From Mycolicibacterium hassiacum DSM 44199 (lineage in GTDB: Bacteria; Actinomycetota; Actinomycetes; Mycobacteriales; Mycobacteriaceae), in contig NZ_LR026975.1 in assembly GCF_900603025.1 (NCBI RefSeq), forward strand, positions 1,178,001-1,242,000: a DNA stretch of 64,000 nt, in the 5' to 3' direction. The position numbers were made by a program, and so were the translations under genes. Below, piece after piece: positions 27,739 through 63,667 of this stretch; positions within the stretch are counted from its first letter, which is position 1; each line of letters begins with the position of its first letter. Under the pieces are notes generated by a model that had not been told where the DNA came from, did no database searches, and saw nothing but the letters and a program-made list of their open reading frames with translations.

Positions 27739-27750
27739 CGTTTGAGCACC

Positions 27751-44412: not shown

Positions 44413-44424
44413 TGTCTACCTCCT

Positions 44425-47764: not shown

Positions 47765-47799
47765 GGCGAACCTTTCATGAGTCGGCGGGCTGTAGATGG

Positions 47800-47844: not shown

Positions 47845-47869
47845 TGGGGGACACTCACCGCGTGAGATC

Positions 47870-47882
47870 GGTGGGTGTCAAG
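47870..47882 (-). promoter_or_regulatory. Stoperator after the major tail gene
   Basis: GGTGGGTGTCAAG on the + strand: consensus except G at the degenerate sixth position. It begins 13 bases after the major tail stop codon on the transcribed strand, and the terminator follows. Confidence 0.75.
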
Positions 47883-47894
47883 TTCGGATCAGTC

Positions 47895-48488: not shown

Positions 48489-48505
48489 GTGGCTGTACCT
48501 TTCGG

Positions 48506-48925: not shown

Positions 48926-48933
48926 GTGACCTC

Positions 48934-49655: not shown

Positions 49656-49846
49656 CAGATCACCGCCGAACGAGACTGCTGAGTGGCCTTCTTCACGTTG
49701 CCCCACTCGATACGCCAGTCGTGGACGCACCGGCAGAGGCCGATGTCGTGGTCGCAGTCGTATGCGTTCACGCGATCCGGCGTGGTCGCCACCAGGAAGC
49801 CAGGTGGATAGATGATCGGAGCCCTGTGGGCATCGCTTCCGCTCAT
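49655..49846 (-). CDS. Small neck-region protein, four Cys
   Basis: 63 residues from ATG overlapping the connector stop (ATGA). PIIYPPGFLVATTP leads to VNAYDCDHDIGLCRCVHDW; three Cys and two His in a short span could bind a metal. It stands between connector and stopper genes and is conserved in that slot in L5-like phages to my knowledge; function unknown. The call name counts Cys loosely: three are certain in this start choice. Confidence 0.6.
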   Translation of the reverse strand: MSGSDAHRAPIIYPPGFLVATTPDRVNAYDCDHDIGLCRCVHDWRIEWGNVKKATQQSRSAVI

Positions 49847-50220
49847 GTCGGCATCACCAAGTTCGGGACGAGAACTGCCATGCGCTTCTGCGATTTGACC
49901 CCGAGGATCTCCCACTCCTCATCGAGGATGGTGAGCTTGCCCTGTGATAGGTCGGCCTGGAGCTGGTAGGTGTACGAGCCGTCGGTCTCCGACAGGTAGC
50001 CCTCGGGGTTACGCACAAGGCGCAGAACGGCATCCGCTTCGATGTCGACCAGGTCTGCGTGGAAGGTCGGGCTGACAGCGACCCTCAGGTCGAGATCGGG
50101 GATCCGCCGCTTGATCATCCGCTCGATCTGTTCGAGCCGACGCTCGATCAGCGTCATCACTTCGGGCTCAGGCTCCTTGGCCCACAACGTCACAACGTCT
50201 TCGGCCGTCGCGTAGGCCAC
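49843..50220 (-). CDS. Head-to-tail connector (Gp19/Gp15-like adaptor)
   Basis: 125 residues from GTG. AYATAEDVVTLWAKEPEPEV, then IERRLEQIERMIKRRIPDLD, FHADLVDIEADAVLRLVRNPEGYLSETDG: this is the Gp19/Gp15/Gp42 head-tail connector family of actinophages. It would form the ring below the portal. The preceding small gene ends three bases upstream. Confidence 0.82.
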   Translation of the reverse strand: MAYATAEDVVTLWAKEPEPEVMTLIERRLEQIERMIKRRIPDLDLRVAVSPTFHADLVDIEADAVLRLVRNPEGYLSETDGSYTYQLQADLSQGKLTILDEEWEILGVKSQKRMAVLVPNLVMPT

Positions 50221-50223
50221 GGG

Positions 50224-50388
50224 TCACTCCTCGTTCTTGGGCTCCTTCTTGGGAGCGGTCTTGGTCTTGCGGGCACGCGGCTTGCGTGCGGGTTTGTCGG
50301 CGTTCTCGACGACACCGGCCGCGATCAGTCGTGCGCCGAACTCATCGGACACCTCGGCGATACCGCCGTTGGGGAAGCGGATCTTCAT
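50224..50388 (-). CDS. Small basic protein between capsid and connector genes
   Basis: A 54-codon gene with ATG behind GAGAGGACC. It starts [13 protein letters not shown] and ends in a Lys/Arg/Pro tail ([13 protein letters not shown]). The gap would otherwise be 240 bases of noncoding DNA in a packed operon. A short protein in this slot is usual in cluster A phages. The N-terminal half looks folded ([17 protein letters not shown]); the tail may contact DNA. Function unknown. Confidence 0.75.
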
Positions 50389-50410
50389 GTGGTCCTCTCA
50401 GACACCCCGG

Positions 50411-50437
50411 AGAGGGCCGGTGTTACCCGGCCCCCTC
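50411..50437 (-). terminator. Hairpin after the capsid gene
   Basis: CCGG inner stem and GAGGG/CCCTC outer stem around TGTTAC, with two extra C on one side. No T-run. It stands between the capsid stop and the next gene, just beyond a stoperator on the transcribed strand. Confidence 0.45.
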
Positions 50438-50439
50438 GC

Positions 50440-50452
50440 GGTGGATGTCAAG
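50440..50452 (-). promoter_or_regulatory. Stoperator after the capsid gene
   Basis: GGTGGATGTCAAG on the + strand, exact consensus, starting seven bases after the capsid stop codon in the direction of transcription. Confidence 0.85.
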
Positions 50453-50458
50453 TTGCGA

Positions 50459-51478
50459 TCAGCCTCCGCCGCCGGTGACCGAACCCCCCGCCGCGCCGCC
50501 GTCCTCGACCGGAGGCACCAGGTCGGTCAGCCGAACGAAGGCATCCGCGTCGTTGCAGTGGAACGCGTACTCAGCCTCGACTCGGACTGCGACGAGGTTG
50601 TGCTGCCACAGCGAGACGAAGTTCGGGGACTGCGGGGTGCCCAGGTTCAGGGTCGCCTGGTCGGTCACGTCGAAGGACAGACCGCCAACCTGACCCCAGA
50701 CGAGCTGGGTGAAGTCGCCCATGAAGCCGACGATGTTGTGCGCGGGCACGTCGCCGTCCTCTTCGACCTCCAGCGATACGTGATCGCTCAGGATCGACTG
50801 CCGGCCGACGATGCGGCCCGGACGGAACGGGTTGACCACGTCACCGTACGGCGCGTCCACGAACAGCGGGCGGCCGTTCAGATCCTTGGCACCGTTGAGG
50901 ATCGGCTCAGCGATGTCGTCCAGAAGGGTGTTGGTCCACTTCTTGCCGTCGTTGACCAGCAAGCTCAGACCGTTGACAGCCAGCGCGTCGTACGCGGTCA
51001 GGCTGCCCGAACCGGCGATGGACACCGTCTTCGTGGTCTGGTTGATGTAGGTCGGGAACGGGCTGTCGGTGCCGAACAGAGCCGCGCTGTCGAACGCCAT
51101 CGCGAAGGCCGTGGCGACCTTGGTCCGCATGGTGCCCAGGTAGTTGGCCGGGTTCGCACGGACGGTTTCCGCCGACGCCACGAAGATCGTCGCGATCTTG
51201 TGGGGCGCGATGGTCTGCGAGGTCATGTTGCCCTTGGTGATGGGCTTCATGTCACCCTCACCGATCCACGACGCGCTCACGTCTCCGACCCAGTGCGGAA
51301 TCTTCTGGCCGGTCGTGCCCATCGGGATCTTCTGGGCGAACTGCTGGACGATGGAGGTCTTCTCCGCTTCGGCGAAGTAGTCCTGCGCCTGCTCGGGCTC
51401 GAGATAGCCCTCGAACATCGAGTCGCCGGTCTGGGCGATCTGGCTGTGATCGACCGCGAACGCGGTACCTGCTGCCAT
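50459..51478 (-). CDS. Major capsid protein, HK97 fold
   Basis: 339 residues from ATG behind AAGGAGAGATAAGC. FEGYLEPEQAQDYFAEAEKTSIVQQFAQKIPM is the N-arm/helix of actinophage HK97-type capsids; then WVGDVSASWIGEGDMKPITKGN, RTKVATAFAMAFDSAALFGT, and a C-terminal region ending in Gly-rich GGSVTGGGG. It follows the scaffold gene directly and is trailed by a stoperator. It builds the icosahedral shell. Confidence 0.93.
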   Translation of the reverse strand: MAAGTAFAVDHSQIAQTGDSMFEGYLEPEQAQDYFAEAEKTSIVQQFAQKIPMGTTGQKIPHWVGDVSASWIGEGDMKPITKGNMTSQTIAPHKIATIFVASAETVRANPANYLGTMRTKVATAFAMAFDSAALFGTDSPFPTYINQTTKTVSIAGSGSLTAYDALAVNGLSLLVNDGKKWTNTLLDDIAEPILNGAKDLNGRPLFVDAPYGDVVNPFRPGRIVGRQSILSDHVSLEVEEDGDVPAHNIVGFMGDFTQLVWGQVGGLSFDVTDQATLNLGTPQSPNFVSLWQHNLVAVRVEAEYAFHCNDADAFVRLTDLVPPVEDGGAAGGSVTGGGG

Positions 51479-51510
51479 TGCTTATCTCTCCTTGAGATCT
51501 GTTGGGTGGG

Positions 51511-52035
51511 TTACTTCTTGATCCCGACGGCCTGCTTGATGGCCTCCAAGATCGGGTCACCGTTCAGAGGCAGAGGCGGCTTACCTCCGCGTCCCTGAGA
51601 CGGGTCGAACGCAGGGCTCGGGGTCTTGCTATCGAAACCGCCGACGAGTTCCAGACGGGACTTCACCGACGCAGCGATGCTGTCCCGGTCGTTGCCGTCG
51701 AGGATCTCGATGAACGCCCGAACCTTGTCGTTGGGAACCTTGGCGTCGAGGGAGAGGTAGACCTTCTCCAGCTCAATCCAAGCATCTCCCAACTGCTTCT
51801 GCAGTTCGGCGTACGCGAGGTCTCGGGCTGCCAGCTCCTGCTGGTGCTTCTCGGTCAGCTCCTTGACCGCCGCTTCAACGGCGTCCTTCTTCGCAATCCG
51901 ATGAGCAGCGGCCTCTTCGCGGAGCGCCTTGACGTACGCTTCGTCGTAGACCTTGCCCTGCGGCTCCATCGGCTTCGAGACCTCCTGGGTCTGGTCGCCG
52001 GCCGGGGTGCTTTCGGTATTTGCATTGTCGGACAT
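51511..52035 (-). CDS. Scaffolding protein
   Basis: 174 residues from ATG. Acidic, Gln/Glu-rich N-terminus, a coiled-coil middle (AAVKELTEKHQQELAARDLA, YAELQKQLGDAWIELEKVYL), and a C-terminal DPILEAIKQAVGIKK. Composition and position directly before the capsid gene are those of siphovirus scaffolds. It guides prohead assembly and is removed on maturation. Confidence 0.85.
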   Translation of the reverse strand: MSDNANTESTPAGDQTQEVSKPMEPQGKVYDEAYVKALREEAAAHRIAKKDAVEAAVKELTEKHQQELAARDLAYAELQKQLGDAWIELEKVYLSLDAKVPNDKVRAFIEILDGNDRDSIAASVKSRLELVGGFDSKTPSPAFDPSQGRGGKPPLPLNGDPILEAIKQAVGIKK

Positions 52036-52085
52036 GTGTTTTCGCCTCCTGGGCTAGTTGAAGAACCCACCTGGGGTTCGGAGAA

Positions 52086-52940
52086 TCACGCAGCGAGTGC
52101 GTAGTTGGACATTTCGATTTCGCCGCGTGCAAGACGGCGTCGGAGCGCGTTGAGCGTCTCCCTGTTCATGTTGTTGGAGCGGGCCTTGCCGGATTCGATC
52201 AGGTCGCTCGCTTCGTTCCCTGCTTCGATCCAAAGTCGCTGCGCCCGTAGGGCAGCGTCTCTCCCTGGCCAGTTCTGCACGTCGAAGACCGGAACCACCA
52301 AGCAGTCGCACCCTGCGTGCCACTCCTCGATGTGGGGCTTTGTCTCTGCGCGGAACTTCTCGAGATCGTGACCGGACTCGTTCCAGAGGTCGATCATGGT
52401 CTCGTCATCGAGGGAGGCCCCTGCCGTGGCTGCTTCCCGGTATGCGAAGTTGCCTTTGTGATTCAGCTCTGCGCCACGGGAAATGAGCATCAGACACCAG
52501 GCGCATGTTTCGCGCCCGGTGGCTACCCTCGCCCAGCCCCTTACGATCTGAGGAGGAGCTGGGTCGTTCTTGACAGCGCCGATGATCTGTCGGCGTCCTG
52601 CCATCTCCACTTCGCGGACTGCCGCCAGGGCGAGCTTGGTCGTCGCCTGCGGCGGAGAGTCGGCCTGCGACATCTCCTTTCGGGCGGGTTCCATGTTCCT
52701 GACGAACCACTCCCACTGAAGCTCTCCTCGGAACCTCTCGTTTCGAGGCAGTTCAGGGTGGTGGAGTCTGCGCTGGGAGTCGTAGAAGTCCCGGCCCAAG
52801 GCGGCAGCATCCGCGTACCGCCGTTGGACCTCTGGGAACAGCACTTGCAGCAATCGCAGCCACTCGCCTACAACGAGGGCTGGACCGACGAAAAGCGAAG
52901 CGAACCGGTGGACGTAGGTGGCAAGACCTGCAGTGATCAA
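52086..52940 (-). CDS. MuF-like head morphogenesis protein
   Basis: 284 residues from TTG 52940; the frame is open back to 52967 and reads LTLEEYAASQA, so a non-canonical upstream start is possible. Central region VRGWARVATGRETCAWCLMLISRGA and the later WHAGCDCLVVPVF are the Cys-bearing core of phage Mu gpF-like proteins. It lies between portal and scaffold, where cluster A phages carry their putative capsid maturation protease (L5 gp15 slot). It probably sits on the portal inside the head. Confidence 0.78.
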   Translation of the reverse strand: MITAGLATYVHRFASLFVGPALVVGEWLRLLQVLFPEVQRRYADAAALGRDFYDSQRRLHHPELPRNERFRGELQWEWFVRNMEPARKEMSQADSPPQATTKLALAAVREVEMAGRRQIIGAVKNDPAPPQIVRGWARVATGRETCAWCLMLISRGAELNHKGNFAYREAATAGASLDDETMIDLWNESGHDLEKFRAETKPHIEEWHAGCDCLVVPVFDVQNWPGRDAALRAQRLWIEAGNEASDLIESGKARSNNMNRETLNALRRRLARGEIEMSNYALAA

Positions 52941-52969
52941 CGCCTGTGAAGCGGCGTACTCCTCCAGGG

Positions 52970-54409
52970 TCAGGCAGCATCACCGCCCTCGATTGCCGGC
53001 TGCGCCGGCTTCGGAGGGGCTGTCGGGTCGGGGTCGACCATCGTGCCAAGTAGGCCGAGGCCCATCGCGGCCTCTTCCTCGTCCCAACGCCGCATCTCTT
53101 CGCGCTCCTTGACGGAGTAGCCCATGTCGATACGAGCGCGCTCACGCGGGATGACGCCCTGGCCGTTGCCGTACAGCTTGGTAGCCGCGTCGGCCTTCGC
53201 CGCGAACGTCGGAGTCGACGGGTCGCGCCAGACGACCTCCATGCGGTGCATTTCCGGGGGAACCTCGCCACCCTTCATGATCCGGTAAGCGATCCGCATC
53301 GCCTCTTCCCATGCGCCACCGAAGATCAGGTTCTTCCGCTCGACCTTCTTGATGAGTCGGTTCTCTGCGGCTCTGATGGCCTCAGCGGAGGCCGGATTAT
53401 CCGCAGCGGTGCTCAGGTACTGGGGAGGCAGTCCCGTGTACGCAGCGACCTGTTTAGCGATCTGATCGAGCGCGTTGGTAAAGTTGGCCAGCTCGGCTGC
53501 TGAGAACTGCTGGATCTTGCCCTCGGCATCCTCGAACGCCAGGATGCGAGCGAGGTATGCGTCGAACATCGTCTGGCCGGTCTCGGAGTCGACGCCGATC
53601 TCCTCGGGCTTGATGCCGAAGATCAGACGCTGGGGAACACCCATCAGCTCTGCAGTCGCCTGCATCAGCATCAGGATACGAGCCGCCGCGTCGGTCATCG
53701 ACCGAAGCTCCGGGGTGATCTCGCTGGTGCCGTACAGGTCCGAGAGCCGGGTCCGGTTCGGCAGCGGCACGACCGGGACTACACCCAGGCCGTGGCTAAC
53801 CGTGAACCACTCTTCCCACTCGCCGTCCGCGTTCTTGAACCATCCGAACGTGTCGGTCGGTGTGTAGAGCGTGGAAGCCTGGATCTCGTTACTTTCCTTG
53901 TCGTAGACGACTCGGATGGCCTTGGAGACCCGGTTGATCCGGGGATCGATCTCCGCGTACATCCGCGTTGGCGGTTCGACCCGGATGATCGGCATGTTCT
54001 GGTCCCACCCGAGGTCGAGCTGCGGGTCGGGCTTGCTGATCGTGATGTACGACCGGCCGTGGACGTAGGCGTCCGTATAGCCAAGCGGCGCTTCGATGTC
54101 GAGGTTGTTGGCCTTCCACCACTGCCACAGCTCTTCGTCAGCCTCGTCGGCATCGCCGAGGCGGAATCCCTCGACGGCCTGTCGCTCCGCGATGGAGTCG
54201 ACGTAGAGCCGGGGGTATCCGACGTGAGCCAGCAGGGACTGCATCTGCGGTGGCACGGTGACGCCGATGGCCTCTGGCCGTCGCTCAGCTTCGTAGTAGC
54301 TGGTGTTGGACTCGAGATCCTTGATCGACTCCTCGAAGGCCGAGACCATCTCGTCTCGGGTGATCTCCGGGTCTTCGATCTCCTCCATACCGGGGAGCGG
54401 TGCTGTCAT
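52970..54409 (-). CDS. Portal protein
   Basis: 479 residues from ATG overlapping the large terminase stop. Features of SPP1-type portals: YEAERRPEAIGVTVPPQMQ, LLAHVGYPRLYVDSIAERQAVEGF, PVVPLPNRTRLSDLYGTSEIT near residue 220, AAYTGLPPQYLSTAADNPASAEAIRAAE near 320. It forms the dodecameric ring for DNA entry. It is directly between terminase and MuF as expected. Confidence 0.92.
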   Translation of the reverse strand: MTAPLPGMEEIEDPEITRDEMVSAFEESIKDLESNTSYYEAERRPEAIGVTVPPQMQSLLAHVGYPRLYVDSIAERQAVEGFRLGDADEADEELWQWWKANNLDIEAPLGYTDAYVHGRSYITISKPDPQLDLGWDQNMPIIRVEPPTRMYAEIDPRINRVSKAIRVVYDKESNEIQASTLYTPTDTFGWFKNADGEWEEWFTVSHGLGVVPVVPLPNRTRLSDLYGTSEITPELRSMTDAAARILMLMQATAELMGVPQRLIFGIKPEEIGVDSETGQTMFDAYLARILAFEDAEGKIQQFSAAELANFTNALDQIAKQVAAYTGLPPQYLSTAADNPASAEAIRAAENRLIKKVERKNLIFGGAWEEAMRIAYRIMKGGEVPPEMHRMEVVWRDPSTPTFAAKADAATKLYGNGQGVIPRERARIDMGYSVKEREEMRRWDEEEAAMGLGLLGTMVDPDPTAPPKPAQPAIEGGDAA

Positions 54410-56154
54410 TGAACCATCACCACCCGGCCGCTACGGGCCTTCTTGCTCATGAGGTAGTCCTGTCTCGCCCCGAACGCGAGGACAGCGCAGACTGCAGCGT
54501 CGATCTTCTTGCTGGAGTCCTTCGTGGCCTTGCGAATCGCGATGGCGTCGTAGTTCGTTGGATGTCGTTTGGCGTTCAGAACGTGTTGGCGCAGAACGGG
54601 ATTTCCGTCGTGGAACAGCTCTCGCTCGATGACGGCGTCTTCGAATCGCTCGCAGTCGAACGCGAATCGCTTCTGCTGACCGCGCATGTCGAATGCCACC
54701 GGGTTGTTCGGGCTGGCGTTGACCTTGAGCTTCTTCTTGTAGGTCCGCGACCACTGGTCGACGTACGACTCAAACTCCTTCACGTCGGCGCGGAACGCGA
54801 CAACGTCGTAGCGGGCAAACGCTGAGTGGACTGCGGCATCCACGTCTTCACGCGGCACCTCGCCGCCGTGCTTCTGGGGATCCCAGACGTTGAGGACGAA
54901 GAGCATCCCGTCGTCCACGCGGCACGCCACCAGGGCGGTCCAGTCGTTGGACTTCGACCCGTCGAACCCGAGGGTGATGCGCTGCTTGGGCTGCAGCTTG
55001 AACACCGGATCGATCAGTGCGACCCGGTCCCATTCCTGCGGTGAGATCCAGGCGTCCTCAGCGGCGTTGATCTGGTTGAGGAACTTGCGTCGAGACTCGG
55101 TGATCGGGTTCTTGGTCGACAGGATCGACTTGATGATGTCGTCAATCGGCAGCCAGGTGGAGTCGCCACGGGCGATCTCGATGCCCTCGCGGAGCTTGGC
55201 GATGCCTTCCTCGAATCCCTTGGGATCCTCCTTCTGCGAGGGGATCTCGGAGATCGGGGTATCGGCCGGCGCTTCGAGAGCGTCGTACATCATGCCGGTG
55301 TCGACGGACTTGCCGGACATCACATCCTGCCACTCGACGTACGCCTTCTCGGCAACCGTCTCGGTGCCAGGGATGTGGGCGTTGCAGATCGACAGGGTGC
55401 GTGAGCCCTCGACCTTGGTCATGTTGCCTTCGATGACCTCTGCCATCGCGTGGCCCTCGTTGACCTTGCCGTCCGGGCCTTGGCCCCACCACTGCGTCTC
55501 GTTCTGGACGACGAAGGTGGGTCGGTTGCCCTCCATCGATGCGGGGCTCGAGGTCGCTGCCTCGATGCGGCCACCGGCTGCGGAGTAGATGATGAAGCGG
55601 TTCACGTCCAGGCCGTACTCGGCCTTCAGCTTCTTGCTGATCATCACCGGGAACAGCGAAAAGGTGTTCTTCGTCTGGTCCTGGCTGACGGCCGCGACGG
55701 TGATCCATGCGGCTGAACGCGGCTTGCCGACCGGGTTACCGTCGGCGTCGAAGTGTGAAAAGGCTACGGGGCCACAGAGTTCCGCGAGACAGAGCGCGGC
55801 TACGAACGGATCCTTGCCCCAACCCTTGAGCCGGCGGATCACGCCTTCGCGGTAGACGTACTGGCCCTCGTCGTCTACAGCGTACCACCACAGAACCAGC
55901 CGTACCTGCTCGTCTGTGGGGATGAACATGTTCTCGTTCTCGAGAAGCCCCGCCTCTGACAGCGCGATGAGCGTCTTGAGTCGATTCGGATCGTCGTGTC
56001 CCCCAGGGGTATTCACGTACTCGGAGAGCCACTTCAGGACTCCCCATCCGAGGGTCTTCTCGGGCAGATACCACTCTCCGTCGACGGTCTTCTGCCACGA
56101 CGGACCGATGATGTGAGGCGGAGCCGGGGCAAGCTCCGGATGACTCAGGCTCAC
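54406..56154 (-). CDS. Large terminase subunit
   Basis: 582 residues from GTG behind AAGGAGGCCGGG. ATPase part: the Walker-A-like RRLKGWGKDPFVAAL near residue 115 and the Walker B region RPTFVVQNETQWW near 215. Nuclease part: ITLGFDGSKSNDWTALVACR near 415 and DAAVCAVLAFGARQDY near 560, giving RNase H-like acidic residues. It packages DNA and cuts at cos. In cluster A phages it follows the lysis genes, as here. Confidence 0.93.
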   Translation of the reverse strand: MSLSHPELAPAPPHIIGPSWQKTVDGEWYLPEKTLGWGVLKWLSEYVNTPGGHDDPNRLKTLIALSEAGLLENENMFIPTDEQVRLVLWWYAVDDEGQYVYREGVIRRLKGWGKDPFVAALCLAELCGPVAFSHFDADGNPVGKPRSAAWITVAAVSQDQTKNTFSLFPVMISKKLKAEYGLDVNRFIIYSAAGGRIEAATSSPASMEGNRPTFVVQNETQWWGQGPDGKVNEGHAMAEVIEGNMTKVEGSRTLSICNAHIPGTETVAEKAYVEWQDVMSGKSVDTGMMYDALEAPADTPISEIPSQKEDPKGFEEGIAKLREGIEIARGDSTWLPIDDIIKSILSTKNPITESRRKFLNQINAAEDAWISPQEWDRVALIDPVFKLQPKQRITLGFDGSKSNDWTALVACRVDDGMLFVLNVWDPQKHGGEVPREDVDAAVHSAFARYDVVAFRADVKEFESYVDQWSRTYKKKLKVNASPNNPVAFDMRGQQKRFAFDCERFEDAVIERELFHDGNPVLRQHVLNAKRHPTNYDAIAIRKATKDSSKKIDAAVCAVLAFGARQDYLMSKKARSGRVVMVQ

Positions 56155-56167
56155 CCCGGCCTCCTTC

Positions 56168-56536
56168 CTACTTCAGTTGATTCAGCCCCAGAGAAACCAG
56201 CGGCCCGACGACGGGAACGTCGCTCGTAGCCTGCGAGACAGCCGCCTTGACGGCCTCAATCTCCTTCTCGGCCTTGGCCTTCGACTCCACGATCTGCTGG
56301 ACGCCGGTCACCACGGCATCGACCGGATCGACCTCATCGAACAGGCCATCCTTGCGCTGCTCACCGACCTTGTAGCCAGCATACGCGGGAGCCGTGCCAG
56401 CGATCAGAGTGCCGAGACCCTGTACCGCAGCGGCGATGTCGCCTCCGCCCTTGACAGCGGTCCAGACCTGAACCAGGCCCAGGATGTAGAGGACAGCGCC
56501 GCTGATGTAGTAGGCAGATTCACGAACCTTGGTCAT
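56168..56536 (-). CDS. Holin-like membrane protein
   Basis: 122 residues from the ATG overlapping the endolysin stop. Two membrane helices (ESAYYISGAVLYILGLVQVW and GLGTLIAGTAPAYAGYKVG) with a short turn, then a charged coiled-coil tail (ESKAKAEKEIEAVKAAV) and hydrophobic end. Position next to the endolysin and topology indicate a holin that releases or times the endolysin. No lysin B gene lies between it and the terminase. Confidence 0.8.
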   Translation of the reverse strand: MTKVRESAYYISGAVLYILGLVQVWTAVKGGGDIAAAVQGLGTLIAGTAPAYAGYKVGEQRKDGLFDEVDPVDAVVTGVQQIVESKAKAEKEIEAVKAAVSQATSDVPVVGPLVSLGLNQLK

Positions 56537-58020
56537 GCAATGCCTTTCTTGGCGTAGTAGTCCTTGAGGATGTGAGGCCGGGTGGCCTCGATGTCGGCGA
56601 GAATCGCCAGCGCCAACTTCCGGTCCTGCTGACGGTCGGGGTACTTCTTCGGGTCGGCGTTTGCGACCTCGAACAGCAGGTCGATCTGGCTCTCGACGCC
56701 GATCTCGGCCAGCGTCTTGACGATCAGGATGTGGATGTTGGCGTCCTGGTTGAGGTCCATACCGGCCCAGGTGTCGACCAGACCCTCGCCCAGATGGCGA
56801 AGCGGCGACCGGGACGGGAACTTCTTGGTCAGTTCGTCGCGGACCTGGTTCCACTCACTCTGCGGAACTTGTGCCATGTCGTCTTGTTCCCCTTCGAGGA
56901 TGTAGAGAAGCTCTTTGTCCAAATCCAGGGCGCGGTTGAATCTGGTGCGCCGGTCTTCCAGACCGTTCGTGCCGCCGTTGATCGCTCTGGTGACCCCGAC
57001 GAGGTCGGCGTTGTCACACAGCGAGTTGATGAACGGCCTTGCAACGGTCCAGTACCAGGCAGCGCCGATGCCGGCCCACTTCACGTCCGACAACTGCTGC
57101 GGGTTGTCCACGAAGTACTTGCTGTTCGGCACCAGCCCGTTGCGGTACGCCCAATCGGAGAACTGGGTGTAGTTCGACCGTCCCGTGATCTGGATCCACG
57201 TGCGGCCCTTGAACCGGACCCCGTCACCGGGGTGGATGTTGCCGAGATCCTTGCGGCCCTCGTAGGCCGCTCCGGAGGCGTACTCCTCGGTGGCGTTGAA
57301 GCCTGCGGACTCATGCCCGGTCTGGGCGATGAACATCGCGATCCGGAACTTGTTGTTGCACTCGGCCAGCCGCAAGCCCTGCTGCATCGTCGGCAGGATC
57401 TCCTGCGCCTTCGTATAGCTGATGCCTGCGGCCTTCGCCAGGGTGTCGGCAGCGCGGTTGAAGTTCTTCGGAGGAAGGTCCGCGTAGCAGTAGCCCTTCG
57501 GCGGGATCAAGGTCGCGGCCTGGTCGAAGCTGATCCAATAGTTGAACGGCCTGAAGCCGGAGTCAGCGATCCACAGCGCCCGAGCGCCGGGGGTATCGTC
57601 GTAGCCCATGCAGGCCACGTAGTGGTAGGTCGTGCCACCCGAGTAAGACGGGTTAGGCGACCCCTTCACGCCACGCGGCTTGTTCGACGGGGGAGCCACC
57701 CAGTTCATGATCACGCCCCAGCCGTTGTCGATGCTGCGGACGATGTGCTCCCAAAGTCGCTCCTTCTGAGCTTGCGTGGGCGGGTCGTTCTCGATATAGA
57801 CCGACGTGTACTTCGCCTCTGGGACACGGCGATCCAGCACCCGCTCGATCAGGCCGACGTAGTCGGTCCCTCGCGTCGTCGTGCCGATCTCAGCGGCCAA
57901 CGTCGCTTCGGGGACCACGATGCCCCGTGAGTTCAGGACGACCTGAGTCGATGCGGGACCGCACCAGTAACCGGTCTCCTGCGGGACCACGTTGCGGTCA
58001 TAGGGGAGTACCTTCTCCAT
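56533..58020 (-). CDS. lysA: Endolysin (lysin A) with C39 peptidase and GH19 domains
   Basis: 495 residues from ATG behind AGAAAGGGACAC. N-terminal C39-type peptidase (residues 1-170): catalytic Cys in TGYWCGPASTQ, His in TTYHYVACMGYDD. Central chitinase-like GH19 domain: FIAQTGHESAGFNATEE near residue 240 (catalytic Glu), RFKGRTWIQITGRSNY near 275. C-terminal cell-wall-binding part from about 380. This modular order is known in cluster A LysA proteins. It digests mycobacterial peptidoglycan at lysis. Confidence 0.93.
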   Translation of the reverse strand: MEKVLPYDRNVVPQETGYWCGPASTQVVLNSRGIVVPEATLAAEIGTTTRGTDYVGLIERVLDRRVPEAKYTSVYIENDPPTQAQKERLWEHIVRSIDNGWGVIMNWVAPPSNKPRGVKGSPNPSYSGGTTYHYVACMGYDDTPGARALWIADSGFRPFNYWISFDQAATLIPPKGYCYADLPPKNFNRAADTLAKAAGISYTKAQEILPTMQQGLRLAECNNKFRIAMFIAQTGHESAGFNATEEYASGAAYEGRKDLGNIHPGDGVRFKGRTWIQITGRSNYTQFSDWAYRNGLVPNSKYFVDNPQQLSDVKWAGIGAAWYWTVARPFINSLCDNADLVGVTRAINGGTNGLEDRRTRFNRALDLDKELLYILEGEQDDMAQVPQSEWNQVRDELTKKFPSRSPLRHLGEGLVDTWAGMDLNQDANIHILIVKTLAEIGVESQIDLLFEVANADPKKYPDRQQDRKLALAILADIEATRPHILKDYYAKKGIA

Positions 58021-58033
58021 GTGTCCCTTTCTG

Positions 58034-58046
58034 GTTGAGTGTCAAG
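58034..58046 (-). promoter_or_regulatory. Degenerate stoperator before the endolysin gene
   Basis: GTTGAGTGTCAAG keeps TGTCAAG but differs at three of the first six positions. It is in the gap between a tRNA and lysA and has the structural-arm orientation. Confidence 0.4.
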
Positions 58047-58050
58047 CCGG

Positions 58051-58132
58051 TGCCCCCGAGAGGATTTGAACCTCCACTTCCCGTATCTCGCTGCGTCCAG
58101 CGCGGGCGTCCTGCCGATTAAACGACGGGGGC
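58051..58132 (-). tRNA. Aberrant phage tRNA, anticodon not resolvable
   Basis: 82 nt on the minus strand. Acceptor stem GCCCCCG/CGGGGGC is perfect, D arm GTTT/GGAC is weak, and T arm GGAGG/CCTCT has loop TTCAAAT. The anticodon arm is abnormal: the region after the D arm folds as CCCG, then CGCTG/CAGCG closed by GACG, then an AGATA bulge and CGGG. No 7-base loop with T33 is found. It is either a decayed gene or a tRNA-derived RNA. Confidence 0.6.
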
Positions 58133-58166
58133 AAAGACCCAGCCCGACAAGCAGACTGGGTGGTTG

Positions 58167-58239
58167 TGCGCTCCCCAGGACTCGAACCTGGAACCGGCGG
58201 CTCTGGAGACCGCTGCTCTACCAATTGAGCTACATGTAC
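58167..58239 (-). tRNA. Phage tRNA-Trp (anticodon CCA) with mismatched acceptor stem
   Basis: 73 nt on the minus strand. D arm GCTC/GAGC, anticodon arm GCGGT/GCCGC with loop CTCCAGA (anticodon CCA) and T arm CCAGG/CCTGG with loop TTCGAGT are all sound. The acceptor strands GTACATG and GGAGCGC do not pair (three mismatches and two G-T), so maturation or charging is doubtful. L5-type phages carry a tRNA-Trp at this place. Confidence 0.75.
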
Positions 58240-58248
58240 ATGCGGGGG

Positions 58249-58271
58249 CTCCCCACGCTCTGGGGAGCCGC
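58249..58271 (-). terminator. Hairpin between gp6-like gene and tRNA-Trp
   Basis: GGCTCCCC pairs with GGGGAGCC around a 7-base loop, between the gp6-like stop codon and the first tRNA in transcription order. It could end the gp6 mRNA or mark a processing point. Confidence 0.55.
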
Positions 58272-58278
58272 CCGAGCT

Positions 58279-59247
58279 TTACCTCGGCTGTCGGTAGACG
58301 ACGCCGAGCTGGACTGGATCGCCGCCAGCGGCTTCGCCGGTCGGCATGTGGACAAGCTGCCAGCGGCAGCGGTTCGGGATCTTATCGGCCTCTTCGGACT
58401 CGACCTTGATCGTGGCCTTGGCACCGTCGATGGTGAACGGCCAGATGGTCAGACGCTCCTTGCCCAGATCGATTACCTCGACCGTGATCGACGGGTTGTA
58501 TCCTGTCAGGTTGGACGCGTCTGGGATGATTGCCTCTATCGGCTGGTTGGCCAGCTCGCCGACGAACTCGATCTCGTAGACCCGGTTCCAGTAGAAGTCG
58601 ACGTTGACGGTGTTCACCGCGCCGACCAGGCCGGCGACCCCGTTGAAGAAGTTCTTGACGGCGGTGCCGGTTACGTCGACCGCGAACGTGACGACACCGA
58701 CTTCATCGAAGGATCGCCGCGAGGTCACCTTGAGCTGGAAGTTCAGGGCGTCGGTGACCGTCATCGACACGTCGACCCCCATCAGTTGCTCGAACGTGTC
58801 GAAGAAGTCGTTCGCGGTCTTGTTGATCAGGTTGACCAACTGCTCGGTGAGCGGCTTGTCGATGTTGAGGTTGAAGTTCAAGATCCACGACGGATGCAGC
58901 AGCGTGGGGTAGACCTCGACGTTGCCGACGCCTGCCGCAGCCTCCAGGGCTTCGGTGATGTCGCCGGGGAGACCCTGCGGGTTCTCCGACACGTCGTTGT
59001 AGTCTATCGGGGGAGTCGTCTCACCCAGGATGTCGAACGCGTACGTGCCGCCGGTAGCCCCGGTGATGGTCACCCGCTGGCGTGCGTTGTGTTCGCCACC
59101 GGTCTCAAGCTCAAGGAACAGCTCACCGGCCGGCCAGGGAGTGACCTGCTTGGTCTGTGGGTCGCGGTGTTCGATCTCCCACTTGAAGTCCCGGCCTGTG
59201 ACCAGGCAGAGCATCTCGAGGTCGAGTGGTTTGCCGAGGTCGGCCAT
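58279..59247 (-). CDS. LtfC/L5 gp6-like virion protein
   Basis: 322 residues from ATG behind GAAAGGAACCAC. N-terminal MADLGKPLDLEMLCLVTGRDF then WEIEHRD and PAGELFLELETG match the LtfC/p132/Gp6 beta-sandwich domain named after L5 gp6. The rest is a mix of helices (LTEQLVNLINKTANDFFDTF) and beta strands. Its place before the tRNAs and lysA is as in L5. Likely a tail-associated structural protein. Confidence 0.78.
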   Translation of the reverse strand: MADLGKPLDLEMLCLVTGRDFKWEIEHRDPQTKQVTPWPAGELFLELETGGEHNARQRVTITGATGGTYAFDILGETTPPIDYNDVSENPQGLPGDITEALEAAAGVGNVEVYPTLLHPSWILNFNLNIDKPLTEQLVNLINKTANDFFDTFEQLMGVDVSMTVTDALNFQLKVTSRRSFDEVGVVTFAVDVTGTAVKNFFNGVAGLVGAVNTVNVDFYWNRVYEIEFVGELANQPIEAIIPDASNLTGYNPSITVEVIDLGKERLTIWPFTIDGAKATIKVESEEADKIPNRCRWQLVHMPTGEAAGGDPVQLGVVYRQPR

Positions 59248-59268
59248 GTGGTTCCTTTCGAATGTCGA

Positions 59269-59317
59269 CCCCGAGGGGGAGCGGCTGGTAGCGGCAACGG
59301 CTCAGAACCCCTCGGGG
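59269..59317 (-). terminator. 10-bp inverted repeat downstream of the small terminase gene
   Basis: CCCCGAGGGG and CCCCTCGGGG are perfect complements around a 29-base loop, between the small terminase stop and the gp6-like start. No T-run. Confidence 0.5.
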
Positions 59318-59322
59318 GACCA

Positions 59323-59790
59323 TCAACCCCCGCCGCTCGCCTTGGCGAGTCGCTGCTTGAGCACGTCGGTTACGTCAACGACCTTCCCGCCTGTCGGGTC
59401 AGCGGGTGCCCGCTCGATCTCGAGTCGGACGCGGCGTCGGTCGCCTTCGGTCAGCAGCAGTGCGGAGAGCATCTGGTTGATGGCTGTCAACTTCATCGCG
59501 CCGATGGGCTTGCCCTGATGCTGGGCTGCGATGAGTTCTTGGTTCAGTGTGTAGAGGGCGAGTCGGGCGAACTGCCAGTCGGTCGGCTCGTAATACTTGA
59601 CCGCCGCCGACTTCTTGATCGACTCGTACATCTCCTCGATGAGCGGATGCGTCTCGCCGAGATGGCTCACGTCCCCGAGGTCGGGGATCTCCACCGGGCC
59701 GATCACCTGGATCGTCTCGGTCGGGTTCTCGTTGATGTTCCGGCGAACCCGCTCTTCGTCTCGCTTTCCGATTGGGCCTCGCGTGCCCAC
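59323..59790 (-). CDS. Small terminase subunit
   Basis: 155 residues from GTG. MGTRGPIGKRDEERVRRN at the start and EEMYESIKKSAAVKYYEPTDW follow the cluster A small terminase pattern; the middle is helical (FARLALYTLNQELIAAQHQG). It binds DNA near cos and hands it to the large subunit. It is far from the large subunit here, separated by gp6-like, lysA and holin genes, as in other cluster A genomes. Confidence 0.8.
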   Translation of the reverse strand: MGTRGPIGKRDEERVRRNINENPTETIQVIGPVEIPDLGDVSHLGETHPLIEEMYESIKKSAAVKYYEPTDWQFARLALYTLNQELIAAQHQGKPIGAMKLTAINQMLSALLLTEGDRRRVRLEIERAPADPTGGKVVDVTDVLKQRLAKASGGG

Positions 59791-59826
59791 TGTTCACCTC
59801 CTGGGTGGAACGGGCACCTGGCCCGT

Positions 59827-60123
59827 TTATCGACGCCCAGGGTGGCGTTCTGGTGGTCGCTTCCTCCGGGCTCTTAGTTCCCGCCGTCGGGCTACACCCT
59901 CGGCGGCTGATTTCTTGCCGTGACAGACCCTGCATGCGGCCTGTAGATTGGATCGGCTGTGGTCGTTACCTCGCCTGATGTGGTCGACATCGGTTGCGGC
60001 CCGGACACATCCGGGGCCGTTGATCTCACACATCCAGTTGGCCGCAGAAAGGACCGGGAGCCGGTAGTTCAGCTCCCAGTCCTCTGGTAGATCCTGTCGC
60101 CGGCTGGAGCCGGCCCAACTCAC
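59827..60123 (-). CDS. HNH endonuclease
   Basis: 98 residues from GTG. WMCEINGPGCVRAATDVDHI, then NLQAACRVCHGKKSAAEG and a very basic tail. Asp-His of DVDHI, the following Asn and CRVCHGKK give a complete HNH site. HNH proteins beside terminase genes are required for cos cleavage in several phages (HK97 gp74 type); this one is 36 bases before the small terminase start, so a packaging role is likely. Confidence 0.88.
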   Translation of the reverse strand: MSWAGSSRRQDLPEDWELNYRLPVLSAANWMCEINGPGCVRAATDVDHIRRGNDHSRSNLQAACRVCHGKKSAAEGVARRRELRARRKRPPERHPGRR

Positions 60124-60125
60124 TG

Positions 60126-60440
60126 CTAGGCCAGCTCCGAAAGGTCGCCGGATATGGCGTCCGCTTCCAGACGCAGGATGTCGAATGCCTCAGTCGCGGT
60201 CTTGCCGGCCCGGCGCAGCTTGTTCATCGCCTGGAACAGGGTGCTGCGTTCGAGGGTGCCTCGGCCTCCCTGAACGAACAGCACGTTGTCGTCGTTGGTG
60301 TACAGCGTCATGCCGCCGTGGATGTGCGCCCAGCGGCCGGGACCGGAGAGCGGTAGCGCGTCGTAGCCCTCGACGGGGCGGATGGCCTGCGCCTGGTTGA
60401 CGGCCTTCTCTACAGCGGACTCTGGTAGACGGTCGGTCAC
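60126..60440 (-). CDS. Small protein paired with the ADP-ribosyltransferase gene
   Basis: 104 residues from GTG overlapping the ART stop (GTGA). LPESAVEKAVNQAQAIRPVEG, WAHIHGGMTLYTNDDNVLFVQGG, then a helical RSTLFQAMNKLRRAGKTATEAF. Soluble, no known motif to me. Tight coupling to a toxin-like enzyme suggests a partner or protective protein, but that is inference. Confidence 0.6.
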   Translation of the reverse strand: MTDRLPESAVEKAVNQAQAIRPVEGYDALPLSGPGRWAHIHGGMTLYTNDDNVLFVQGGRGTLERSTLFQAMNKLRRAGKTATEAFDILRLEADAISGDLSELA

Positions 60441-61360
60441 GGCAGCAACACCTCCACTTCGATCTCCCATTTGCCTTCGTCGTTCTTGAACACGTTGGTG
60501 ATATAGAACTCGGTCCCGCGAGGGAGCAAGAACTCGTTCTCAGTTGGCAACGTGGACAACGCTCCACTGTGTATGGCATCGCCAGCCATGTAAACACCCT
60601 TTATACCCTTGGGGACCGTCACGGTGAGCTGCACCGGCATGTAGTCCATCGCGGCCTTGCCGCCGACCGAGGTCGACGTGTATGCGTCGTTGACGTACGT
60701 CTTGCCCAGGAGCTGGTGCAGGTCGTCGTCGGGGCCGGTGATGCCCAGGTTCTTGAACTCATGCCAGCGAGTGCCGCGAGCCAACTGGATCGTCTCGGGG
60801 ATCTCCGGGGCGAAGTCGAACCCGGCATCCATGTTCGCGATGCGCTCTTTGATGTTCTCGATGTACTTCTGCTTGACGTAGTCCGAGTACGGGTTGCCGT
60901 TGAAGTCCTTCAGGCTGTCAACGAATGCGGGGTCATCGAACTTGCTGATGTCGCCGCCTGCATCACGTAGCGCGGTGTTGATCGTCTGGTAGCCGATGTT
61001 GGTCGAGTAGGTTGCGAACTCCTCGCGAACCTTGTCCTCGTACTTGTCCTTCGAGGGCCAGATGCTGGCGAACCACTTCCGCGCCTGCTGGGCGCTGGGG
61101 AAGGTCTTCGGCTTAGTCGGTTGCTCCTGCGGCGTGCGATTCGGGGTCTGAACTCCACCACCGGAGCCGGCTCCGCCGCCACCGCCTCCGATGAACCTGC
61201 CGGTACCGGCGTTGCCTACACCTGCGTACCCGCCTCCGCTCGACCCGGCGCTACCAGCGCCGCTGCCGGGGATACCAGATCCAGATCCTGGGGCGGCAGC
61301 TCCAGCGCGGCGCTTTCCTGTGCCGGGACCGGGGCCGCCGCGGCCTCCGCGTCCACCCAA
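60437..61360 (-). CDS. ADP-ribosyltransferase (arginine-type, R-S-E) with Gly-rich N-terminus
   Basis: 307 residues from TTG behind AAGGAAG. Residues 1-70 are Gly/Ala/Ser-rich and flexible. The ART domain shows all three landmarks: Arg in IQLARGTRWHEF (about residue 196), the STS strand in DAYTSTSVGGKA (about 229), and the ENE (E-x-E) in TENEFLLPRGTEFYI (about 276). Such enzymes transfer ADP-ribose from NAD to arginine. Being in the virion arm, it may be injected or act on host proteins late. The first 145 bases overlap the preceding gene in another frame. Confidence 0.85.
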   Translation of the reverse strand: MGGRGGRGGPGPGTGKRRAGAAAPGSGSGIPGSGAGSAGSSGGGYAGVGNAGTGRFIGGGGGGAGSGGGVQTPNRTPQEQPTKPKTFPSAQQARKWFASIWPSKDKYEDKVREEFATYSTNIGYQTINTALRDAGGDISKFDDPAFVDSLKDFNGNPYSDYVKQKYIENIKERIANMDAGFDFAPEIPETIQLARGTRWHEFKNLGITGPDDDLHQLLGKTYVNDAYTSTSVGGKAAMDYMPVQLTVTVPKGIKGVYMAGDAIHSGALSTLPTENEFLLPRGTEFYITNVFKNDEGKWEIEVEVLLP

Positions 61361-62025
61361 TTCAGTTGCTTCCTTCGTCTGTCCCAGTAGGTCGGGTACT
61401 CCCTGACCTCTGGAAGGTCGATGTCGTCGCAGTAGCGCAGCCGTCCATAGACCAGGAGCCGCTGCGGTTGCCTGCGTGCGATGAGTTCTTTGAGACCGGC
61501 GCGGAACAGCGCCTGGTCCTGCTTGCTGCTGCGGATGCCCATCGAGCTGATGGCGACCGTGGCTCCGGCAGGGATGCCGTCGAAGCAGAACTCATACGAA
61601 TCCGGCGTGCTCCAACACGCCGTGGGGATGACCTCGACGCCTTCCGACTGCCAGTACGCGCCGCACCAGCGATTGCGGTAGACGTTCCAGATCTGTGCGG
61701 CCTTGGGCATGTCCACCCAGAGGCTGAAATCGGGAGTCAGGGCTGCCCCAACCGCTTTCACGCGGGGGAGGAGCCTCTCTGGACTCGACCAACAGGTCTC
61801 GAATCGGTAATCATCGAGGAAGAAGTGCAGTGCGCCGCCCGAAATGGCGGCGTATTCGCGATGACGCGGCATGTTCCATGCCGCGAGATTGTTCGGAACG
61901 AACTCAGTCGGTTGCAGATCCGGAATGTCGTAGGCGGATGACGACTCGAACGTCAGCCGCAGGTTCAGAACGTCGAACTTTCCCGGTTGAGTGCTCCAAT
62001 AGGCACTCGAGCGAGTGCCATACAC
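61216..62025 (-). CDS. DUF4417 protein, first gene of the left arm
   Basis: 269 residues from GTG behind AGAGGGGTGACTCAACT. The central part ISGGALHFFLDDYRFE, DFSLWVDMPKAAQIWNVYRN, CGAYWQSEGVEVIP, GIPAGATVAISSMGI fits DUF4417, found at the left end of cluster A genomes. The Pro/Ala-rich C-terminus overlaps the ART start. Function unknown; the domain resembles proteins linked to restriction or host modulation only loosely. Codons 3-8 form a perfect hairpin in the DNA. Confidence 0.78.
   Translation of the reverse strand: MYGTRSSAYWSTQPGKFDVLNLRLTFESSSAYDIPDLQPTEFVPNNLAAWNMPRHREYAAISGGALHFFLDDYRFETCWSSPERLLPRVKAVGAALTPDFSLWVDMPKAAQIWNVYRNRWCGAYWQSEGVEVIPTACWSTPDSYEFCFDGIPAGATVAISSMGIRSSKQDQALFRAGLKELIARRQPQRLLVYGRLRYCDDIDLPEVREYPTYWDRRRKQLNWVDAEAAAAPVPAQESAALELPPQDLDLVSPAAALVAPGRAEAGTQV
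62002..62019 (-). other. Hairpin in the first codons of the DUF4417 gene
   Basis: GGCACTC/GAGTGCC with loop GAGC, starting 6 bases inside the gene on its sense strand. It continues the hairpin array upstream and could hold back translation of the first late gene. Confidence 0.6.
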
Positions 62026-62045
62026 AGTTGAGTCACCCCTCTATA

Positions 62046-62351
62046 AGGGCCGCGCACTGGCGCGGCCTTGAGATCCGGCGGTTGCCGGATCGAATAGATC
62101 CTTATGACCGGCCCTTCAAGGCCGGTCTATCTAGAGAGCGCCTGGTGGCGCTCTTATCGCGCCGCCTGTGCGGCGCTCTATAGAGAGGGGCTTTAGCCCC
62201 TCATAATGTAGGAAGGTGTATGTACCTTGACAGCCACCCTTCATAGTGACATAGATCACTGATTAATGAGAAGCGCCCTGAGAGGCGCTGAGACCATTCC
62301 GGGGGTATAACCACACCTGGGTGGGGGAGTTCGTGCGCCCTGGAGGCGCAC
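62046..62351. repeat. Array of eight short perfect hairpins in the late-operon leader
   Basis: Stems in order: GGCCGCGC/GCGCGGCC (62048-62067, loop ACTG); GATCCGGC/GCCGGATC (62072-62091, GGTT); GACCGGCC/GGCCGGTC (62106-62127, six-base loop); AGAGCGCC/GGCGCTCT (62135-62154, TGGT); GCGCCGC/GCGGCGC (62159-62176, CTGT); GAGGGGC/GCCCCTC (62185-62202, TTTA); AGCGCC/GGCGCT (62272-62289); GTGCGCC/GGCGCAC (62333-62351). Stems are 6-8 bp with no mismatch, loops mostly 4 bases, and the first six follow each other within 160 bases. No open frame is supported here. Confidence 0.9.
62226..62238 (+). promoter_or_regulatory. Stoperator within the hairpin array, right-arm orientation
   Basis: CTTGACAGCCACC (complement GGTGGCTGTCAAG, exact). 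Unlike the structural-arm sites it faces rightward transcription, toward cos. TTGACA could be a -35 box but the -10 at 17 bases (CATAGA) is poor. It also overlaps the upstream part of a weak minus-strand -10-like TACATT. Confidence 0.8.
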
Positions 62352-62429
62352 AGAGGCCGTGAGAGTGGTTCCTGGACCGGCCCCTGGCCCTGATCGACTT
62401 GAAAACCCGTACACGATGGCTCGGCCGCA

Positions 62430-62439
62430 TAACCGACCG
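62430..62439 (-). other. cos site: cohesive-end sequence
   Basis: TAACCGACCG here is CGGTCGGTTA on the minus strand, the 10-base 3' overhang I know from several cluster A subclusters. It lies between the start of the left arm and the right-end noncoding region, exactly where joined ends should be in a prophage. Confidence 0.8.
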
Positions 62440-62741
62440 GTCACGGCTGTCCCCTAGGGGGGATACCCCCTGGGGGTATAGAAACAGGCTCTGGCCTGGG
62501 CAAACTCACGCATGCGCGGGCGTGCGAGACCCCGCGGGCGCTATGCCAGCAAAGGGCACTTGTGTGCCCGATACCCACGCCTACCTGCGGGGATGCGAAC
62601 AGCCGGCCGAGGCTGCAGCAAACACACGCACGCGCTGTGCTGCACACCAGCGCACACACCAGCGCACACGCGCTGGCCAGCGCAAACACACACGCTCACA
62701 CCAGCGTGTGACCAGCGCACACGCGCATACCGAGCACGTAG

Positions 62742-62756
62742 TGAGCAGCCTATGCG
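62742..62756 (+). repeat. 15-bp direct repeat, copy 1 (TGAGCAGCCTATGCG)
   Basis: First of three identical copies in the right-end noncoding region; the others start at 62876 and 62959. Confidence 0.9.
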
Positions 62757-62875
62757 AACAAGCGGATTAAGCCTCTACCAGCACAAACGGTGGCTCATGC
62801 AGGCACGCACACGGGCGCACGCGCCCACGCGGGCGCGCACACGCGAGCGAGCCCGGCCCACGACCGGACAGGAAC

Positions 62876-63537: not shown

Positions 63538-63540
63538 CGG

Positions 63541-63645
63541 GGGTAGCTCTGGCGGTGTGGAATGACACCTGAGCTATGGTCTGGCGGACCATGCTAAGGC
63601 ATGGTCGCGGCATCACGACTACGCGGTTCGATTCCGCGCTACCCA
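63541..63645 (+). ncRNA. tRNA-like structured RNA candidate in the early leader
   Basis: The 5' GGGTAGC (63541-63547) pairs with GCTACCC (63638-63644), followed by A as discriminator. A T-arm-like hairpin GCGG-TTCGATT-CCGC directly precedes the 3' strand. Inside are ATGGT/ACCAT with the 7-base loop CTGGCGG (63576-63592; C32-T33 then GGC), GCTC/GAGC as a D-like stem competing with the acceptor, and a hairpin GGTGT/ACACC in the oversized D loop. A 28-base variable region follows. CCA is not encoded. It is about 30 nt longer than a tRNA, so I call it tRNA-like rather than a tRNA. Confidence 0.6.
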
Positions 63646-63667
63646 CTACCTGAGATTTGATCTAGGA

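Follow-up and report, generated by a model that had tools for sequence, protein, structure and literature searches.

Stem-loops at the 5' ends of bacterial mRNAs are known to stabilize the message, as in ompA, and the put RNA of phage HK022 consists of two adjacent stem-loops of defined sequence that act on RNA polymerase. Control of late transcription in L5-type phages is poorly known. The late start site is listed among the matters not understood before in the accessible text of a report whose strand-specific RNA-seq data place the start of the L5 and D29 late transcripts approximately 230 bp from the left genome end (PMC5712189). For the subcluster A4 phage Kampy, the accessible text of a second report describes a late start near 200 bp from the left end and a leader that gives the highest RNA peak at 60 min, which its authors attribute perhaps in part to a pile-up of reads at the 5' end; this left-end RNA, untranslated and without peptides, was found by BLAST only in A4 phages (PMC4626039). 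Within open-licence PubMed Central papers, we found no description of the hairpin array that we report here.

The DNA analyzed (the window) is a stretch of 64,000 nucleotides from Mycolicibacterium hassiacum DSM 44199 (NZ_LR026975.1, positions 1,178,001 to 1,242,000), part of a 5.27-Mb chromosome assembled as one contig. To judge from its similarity to phages, the window contains an integrated cluster A prophage. A blastn search with positions 61950-62500 matched 371 phage records, 338 named Mycobacterium and 28 named Gordonia; Journey13, MissWhite, and SWU1 were the best among the 40 matches listed, which also included D29. The best matches start at record base 1, which corresponds to window position 62429 on the minus strand. 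Positions 62430..62439 on the same strand are presumably the cos overhang, taken from the L5 sequence as we know it, and the far side of cos resembles a phage right end, as if the two ends were joined in the manner of a prophage. The region from cos to the early promoter contains many short repeats at 62618-62850, such as ACCAGCGCACAC. Gene 1, the first gene of the late operon (61216..62025, minus strand), encodes a DUF4417 protein (Pfam PF14386, E value of 8e-70; phrog_940, annotated in PHROG as nuclease). The second late gene (60437-61360, minus strand) encodes an ADP-ribosyltransferase domain (Pfam PF03496, E value of 2e-22; PHROG, exoenzyme toxin), and its counterpart in Journey13 is named VIP2-like. 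In the chromosomes of the host genus, 18 of 297 genomes matched a 741-nt query comprising the leader and the start of gene 1, and the matches other than that of the window itself are pieces of approximately 35 to 185 nt. Plasmids gave a single short match.

An initial annotation had pointed out dense short perfect hairpins in 62002..62351, and both the density and the coordinates proved right. With perfect stems of at least 6 bp and loops of 3 to 8 nt as criteria, these 350 nt contain nine perfect hairpins, with stems of 6 to 8 bp and loops of 4 to 6 nt, whereas 2,000 dinucleotide-preserving shuffles averaged 0.48 and never exceeded 4; for stems of at least 7 bp, the count is eight, where the shuffles averaged 0.12 and reached at most 2. 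This is the densest part of the window (nine hairpins versus a window mean of 1.2 in 350-nt frames moved in steps of 10), and it accounts for 8 of the 42 stems of at least 7 bp on the minus strand of 25000-62429. Elsewhere on the minus strand, at approximately 27747-27784, lies a perfect 17-bp hairpin with a 4-base loop. The annotation regarded the eight or nine hairpins as one single array. We instead distinguish three elements, because comparison with 42 relatives separates them: a core of six hairpins, two hairpins that precede the late promoter region, and one that lies in the codons of gene 1 and is partly explained by them.

The core (62048-62202, minus strand) lies between the late promoter region and gene 1 and consists, in the direction of transcription, of H1 (GAGGGGC-TAAA-GCCCCTC, 62185..62202), H2 (GCGCCGC-ACAG-GCGGCGC, 62159..62176), H3 (AGAGCGCC-ACCA-GGCGCTCT, 62135..62154), H4 (GACCGGCC-TTGAAG-GGCCGGTC, 62106..62127), H5 (GATCCGGC-AACC-GCCGGATC, 62072..62091), and H6 (GGCCGCGC-CAGT-GCGCGGCC, 62048..62067). 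H6 adjoins the ribosome site, a Shine-Dalgarno-like AGAGGGG at 62036..62042 (AGGGGTG in most relatives). H7 (62002..62019) lies within the first codons of gene 1 (GTRSSA) and has perfect counterparts in relatives. All nine hairpins span phage positions 79-428, and the perfect-hairpin scan placed the two upstream ones within 62272-62351: hairpin a at 62333..62351 (phage 79-97) and the cos-linked hairpin b, with the loop TCTCAG, at 62272..62289 (phage 141-158). Between these two and the core, on the same strand, are a dyad read by eye (AGTGATCTATGTCACT, 62245..62260; GTGATCTACGCCACT in many relatives), a stoperator or repressor site (GGTGGCTGTCAAG, 62226..62238) that matches the consensus 5'-GGTGG(c/a)TGTCAAG (PMC5712189), and an A/T-rich -10-like element (TACATTAT, 62203..62210), a putative promoter element with similar counterparts at this place in many leaders. 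H1 follows this element directly, and the start site may therefore cut H1.

The six core stems of the window differ from one another, and no family of direct repeats was found within 62002-62207 at the settings used, so that the core is not a CRISPR- or TIGR-like repeat array. None of the core hairpins in this window is followed by a U-tract as an intrinsic terminator would be. Formation of H2 and H3 could be opposed by a larger, imperfect inverted repeat (62127-62142 with 62172-62187), but the predicted ensemble favors the two hairpins. The leader has no Rfam match above the gathering cutoff; the best match below it (Atu_C3, 26.4 bits versus a cutoff of 100, E value of 0.0042) is on the opposite strand.

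Relatives were collected by three routes: gene 1 relatives in viral contigs (30 loci), the cos-end pattern (47 stretches), and relatives of the HNH gene that takes first place in other phages (87 loci, of which 80 were retained), together with named records. The 43 DUF4417-type gene 1 leaders compared in detail are those of the window, of 25 loci from the gene-relative route, and of 17 from the cos pattern; with 69 from other lineages, 112 leaders were scanned. From the gene 1 relatives, L027-L031 were omitted (40 to 44% identical, gene not at the contig end). The cos pattern gave 23 new loci, of which L053, L083, L098, L065, L086, and L097 fall outside the DUF4417 set. Another lineage's count includes L065 and L086, and L083 and L098 entered by way of copies in the HNH-gene set; L053 was omitted from the lineage counts, and L097 looked unrelated. 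In the HNH-gene set, 76 of 80 loci were scanned (L107, L149, L150, and L151 omitted), and the lineage counts omit the other-phage loci L132, L134, L139, L148, L172, and L182-L185, which have 0 to 4 hairpins, as well as the offset loci L158, L163, and L174. The start of gene 1 was placed 26 nt after H6 in 17 loci, and that of L025 by estimate rather than annotation; the presence of H6 in those 17 leaders is hence by choice.

With L025 set aside, 42 DUF4417-type leaders contain, from gene 1 upward, 10 (H6), 12 (H5), 25 (H4), 23 (H3), and 27 (H2, present in 41) distinct hairpins. Classes H2 to H4 were ordered from H5, and a lost hairpin shifts the order (L026 is without H4); H4, recounted by sequence, is recognized in 40 of the 42 leaders as 23 distinct hairpins. 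All 35 pair positions of H2-H6, assigned by order, are Watson-Crick, and 28 of them show more than one pair type, in stems that were found by perfect matching and in which internal mismatches cannot show up. Two points are free of this bias: H5 has at least 7 pairs in all 42 leaders, and a scan that tolerated one mismatch found none inside H2-H6. In strictly matched H4, H5, and H6, 14 of the 21 pair positions vary (4/7, 5/7, and 5/7, respectively) and every pair is Watson-Crick. Over H2-H6 as assigned by order, 3' arms shuffled among the phages were paired at 61 to 88% on average. H5 is the clearest case, in that its outer pairs are swapped and its two inner pairs are kept, with the loop AACC in 6 of 12 distinct hairpins; H4 is nearly invariant, each position being alike in 21 to 23 of the 23 distinct hairpins. 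The claim that shape is conserved over sequence can therefore be upheld across phages, where the changes are compensated, but it does not follow from this window alone. The compensatory changes support the view that the pairing is under selection. Of the findings that would have spoken against an RNA role, namely, a lack of compensatory change, a lack of the array in relatives, and a lack of a transcript, none was obtained, the transcript data being those of relatives rather than of this prophage.

Folding predictions agree with this picture. RNA folding of the 200-nt leader of the window gave a z score of -8.7, and 16 representatives of ten groups gave -4.1 to -9.7, with 3 to 8 perfect hairpins each versus shuffle averages of 0.2 to 0.8. 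Of 229 core hairpins, 212 have a predicted pairing probability above 0.9; the value is low for 2 of the 5 hairpins of L022 and for 2 of the 4 of L025. By eye, L022 and L024 have, at approximately 240-290, overlapping hairpins (CGGCTCTC... and GAGCCGCC...) that share an arm, so that only one can form at a time. The linkers have a G+C content of 30%, compared with 84% for the stems and 65% for window positions 24001-62429. From the pairing probabilities and this contrast in G+C content, the leader is predicted to be a string of hairpins that fold singly.

In spite of the sequence turnover, H2-H6 of the DUF4417 lineage contain no G-U pairs. As a control, the acceptor and T stems of 13 tRNAs (11 from two cluster L phages and 2 from the window) contain 21 G-U among 156 pairs (13%). 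Core stems vary in length from 5 to 9 pairs, and with such variation, stability alone should tolerate G-U. In the one-mismatch scan of ten groups, 237 distinct hairpins had 6 G-U, 5 A-C, and 23 other mismatches, and some of the mismatched hairpins in other lineages may be true leader hairpins; in the DUF4417 set, the scan gave 3 G-U outside the core hairpins and 1 A-C in the outward extension of H4. Template-switch repair of palindromes would produce the absence of G-U without selection, and so would a reader of perfect helices. Across all lineages, 181 of 215 distinct hairpins have C-G as the pair that closes the loop.

The core keeps its place relative to the promoter region. A stoperator-like motif, sought with a loose expression, is present in 30 of 43 leaders, 29 to 38 nt before H1 in 27 of them and 65 to 69 nt before it in 3. 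In contrast, H1 lies anywhere between 215 and 515 nt from cos, and in the long-leader phages, the promoter region and the array are displaced as one. The binding of terminase next to cos, one of the roles first considered, is thus very improbable for the core, which lacks the fixed place of a cosB-type site and has no direct repeats within 62002-62207, even though the nine hairpins lie near the left end at phage 79-428; what survives of it concerns hairpin b, whose distance to cos is steady. A counterpart of hairpin b starts at a phage position of approximately 129 to 147 in 27 of the 43 left ends, and several of these counterparts have CTCAG-like loops. Five of these 27 are long-leader phages in which the promoter region and array lie approximately 270 to 290 nt further on, which indicates that hairpin b goes with cos. 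Counterparts of hairpin a start at approximately 58 to 115 in 25 of 43 left ends, in a less regular place. One or both of these hairpins are apparently tied to cos, and the two (phage 79-158) are perhaps part of the packaging site.

That no coding frame explains the hairpins is correct for the core, for which a coding explanation was rejected: the stems covary, and the linkers differ by any number of bases. It is not fully correct for H7. Perfect hairpins occur in the first 36 nt of gene 1 at 35 of the 43 loci, and 32 of these are of the GCACTC type. In seven sequences of the protein, T4, R5, and S7 do not vary, so that protein constraint partly explains H7. We also rejected a tie between the array and DUF4417 as such. 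For this, 80 of 196 DUF4417 relatives in genome contigs were taken, and two were dropped for having less than 260 nt upstream; 77 of the remaining 78 have 0 to 2 perfect hairpins in the 250 nt upstream, and one has 4. The cluster L phages Faith1 and Silverleaf have a DUF4417 gene without an array, and HNH-first lineages have arrays without a DUF4417 gene in first place.

Hairpins occur at the same place in Kampy (A4) and its kin, Bxb1 (A1) and its kin, the pairs L126/L128 and L127/L130, the group L065/L086/L121/L122, the lone contigs L129 and L131, and the Gordonia phages Rosalind and Waits. Between 4 and 8 perfect hairpins were found in the stretch scanned in 111 of 112 leaders, and 3 in L131. 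The stems of the HNH-first lineages are mostly different from those described above, whereas those of Rosalind and Waits are plainly kin to the stems of the window; Bxb1 kin have longer linkers. By eye, Rosalind has an apparent small frame between the array and gene 1. Among 144 distinct 7-mers of 5' arms, 117 occur in one group only and 27 in two or more, with GACCGGC in five. Pairing is therefore kept more widely than sequence, to judge from these counts, with some carry-over of sequence; wholly unrelated stems between lineages were rejected on the same 27 recurrences, which possibly reflect distant homology or sequence-specific recognition of some hairpins. Journey13, nearly identical to the prophage in this region, carries an exact 117-bp tandem duplication with H2-H5, so that its core counts ten hairpins rather than six. 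Among the kin of Bxb1, the hairpin at phage positions of approximately 392 to 416 has two different forms between the same neighbors. As these two cases show, single hairpins or groups of them are copied as units and probably also swapped as units.

The position of the array, attributed at the outset to the leader of the structural operon, is supported by transcription data from relatives. H1 starts at 225 in the relative L009 and the first hairpin of Kampy at 196, which agrees with the reported starts of approximately 230 bp in L5 and D29 (PMC5712189) and 200 bp in Kampy (PMC4626039), so that in relatives the core is a transcribed leader. The value of 230 bp is not exact, because, for the early transcript of L5, the RNA-seq data underrepresent approximately 30 nt of the 5' end (PMC5712189). 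The core thus combines conserved pairing with compensatory change, observed here, with the transcription, the high leader peak, and the non-translation described for relatives.

Taken together, the pattern of substitutions suggests that the hairpin string with which the late messenger begins very probably functions as a folded RNA. As to its role, we tentatively favor, at somewhat below an even chance, a modular 5' leader that protects and insulates the late transcript through its overall shape. The core would form the untranslated leader at the 5' end of the late structural mRNA and would fold as separate short hairpins with A/U-rich linkers, leaving the ribosome site of gene 1 open. Acting through its overall shape, hairpin by hairpin, it would protect the leader from degradation and from unwanted pairing, and possibly also from the loading of Rho, such that leader RNA would accumulate and the long late message would arrive intact. 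The protective and insulating role, which we infer, is in keeping with a modular copy number and with stems that tolerate sequence change, as well as with A/U linkers, a ribosome site left open, and the abundance of leader RNA, and the increase from six to ten core hairpins in Journey13 is as expected of an additive element. The near invariance of H4 and the recurrence of stems such as GACCGGC in five lineages appear to count against a role of shape only, and the absence of G-U from H2-H6, which stability alone does not predict, would count against shielding. Avoidance of mycobacterial RNase E sites would predict C-poor unpaired segments, according to the accessible text of PMC10641625; this variant is not supported, since the linkers (174 C, 155 G) are not specifically C-poor.

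The recurrence of 27 of the 144 arm 7-mers shifts some weight from the shielding leader to two other readings. The first, a possible though less probable alternative, is processive antitermination of the put type, in which the nascent hairpins would bind their own RNA polymerase, either unaided or together with a factor from phage or host, and allow it to read through terminators over the late operon. The array is in the right position for this, just downstream of the promoter of a long operon and in its first transcribed part (by the published starts in relatives and the linkage to the stoperator-like motif), its pairing is conserved and its copy number modular, and the recurrence of some stems between lineages is what a contact with polymerase might produce. 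However, it is a string of simple perfect hairpins instead of two with a defined sequence as in put: there are 4 to 8 hairpins in 111 of 112 leaders and ten in the core of Journey13, and most stems differ between lineages. Neither of two boxA motifs, written from general knowledge, occurs in any of the 112 leaders scanned; terminator-like sites, by a generic consensus, number 12 versus 11.8 in shuffles on both strands of 43000-62500, which covers part of the operon; and the open-licence literature gave no support. A largely sequence-tolerant RNA device is likewise possible, though improbable: interchangeable perfect hairpins, swapped and copied as units, would act additively, either on the transcribing RNA polymerase or on some protein able to recognize the shape of a helix, as a processive antitermination or anti-Rho leader of actinobacterial phages.

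The second reading helped by stem recurrence, which we consider unlikely, is that of a partial attenuator or a source of regulatory RNA. Transcription would stop, or the RNA would be processed, within the array to yield an abundant short RNA with a trans-acting role, such as that of a sponge that takes up an RNA-binding protein. The height of the Kampy leader peak (PMC4626039) and the abundant, stable RNA from a toxic region at the opposite genome end of L5-type phages (PMC5712189) are in its favor, as is the multiplication of hairpins in Journey13, but core hairpins in the window lack the U-tract, and no conserved single-stranded target motif was noticed except for some loops (mostly AACC in H5). 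Still less probable is a DNA-level element, with palindromes that form cruciforms or single-stranded hairpins for replication, recombination, or protein dimers and with transcription as incidental. Perfect palindromes without G-U in H2-H6 are what would be expected if both strands must pair, the nearly equal counts of 6 G-U and 5 A-C in the one-mismatch scan of all lineages carry no sign of the RNA strand, and a C-G closing pair (181 of 215) is the same on either strand. Nevertheless, the absence of G-U can also stem from template-switch repair, the array of the DUF4417 lineage stays between the promoter region and the ribosome site, arrays also precede a different first gene, and the variety of stems makes a single sequence-specific dimer unlikely.

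A separate observation concerns the early leader, where a tRNA-like stretch (63539-63646, plus strand) has a T-arm (GGTTCGATTCC) and an acceptor-like stem. Rfam tRNA-Sec matches it below the cutoff in the window (24.6 bits, E value of 0.05) and in Journey13 (L190; E value of 0.23), and Rosalind (L189, 228-290, minus strand) has a weak match to mascRNA (E value of 0.024), which is itself tRNA-like. D29 (L186) has no Rfam match yet contains T-arm and acceptor-like letters; by eye, the arms look compensated, and the predicted fold differs. The T-arm pattern occurs in eight viral contigs and was not found in Kampy, Bxb1, or Rosalind. The stretch seems to lie approximately 500 nt after Pleft, about where the abundant L5-type RNA would end; tRNA-like processing could define this 3' end, which the accessible text of PMC5712189 calls unclear.

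Leaders built similarly to the left-end RNA of Kampy thus exist in other lineages of cluster A as well as in related phages of Gordonia. The element is small and easily mutated, and nearly identical phages with six or ten hairpins are natural copy number variants, so that its role is directly testable; it might also be of use as a leader part for mycobacterial expression.

Compared with known systems, the array resembles the stabilizing stem-loops of the ompA type in that hairpins stand at the 5' end of the message, but here a whole string of them is kept through the turnover of most of their sequences. It resembles put of HK022 in that hairpins stand at the start of a long phage operon, but the string is longer and consists of plain hairpins with varying stems. 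The Pright region of L5, D29, and StarStuff is the same locus in close relatives, with the stoperator, the late start, and gene 1; the accessible text of that report does not describe folding of the leader, and the word "hairpin" is absent from its main text (PMC5712189). The non-coding peak at the left end of Kampy, an abundant RNA that lies upstream of gene 1 and is not translated, is the subcluster A4 form of this leader, and whereas BLAST confined it to A4 (PMC4626039), arrays of perfect hairpins occupy the same place in further lineages.
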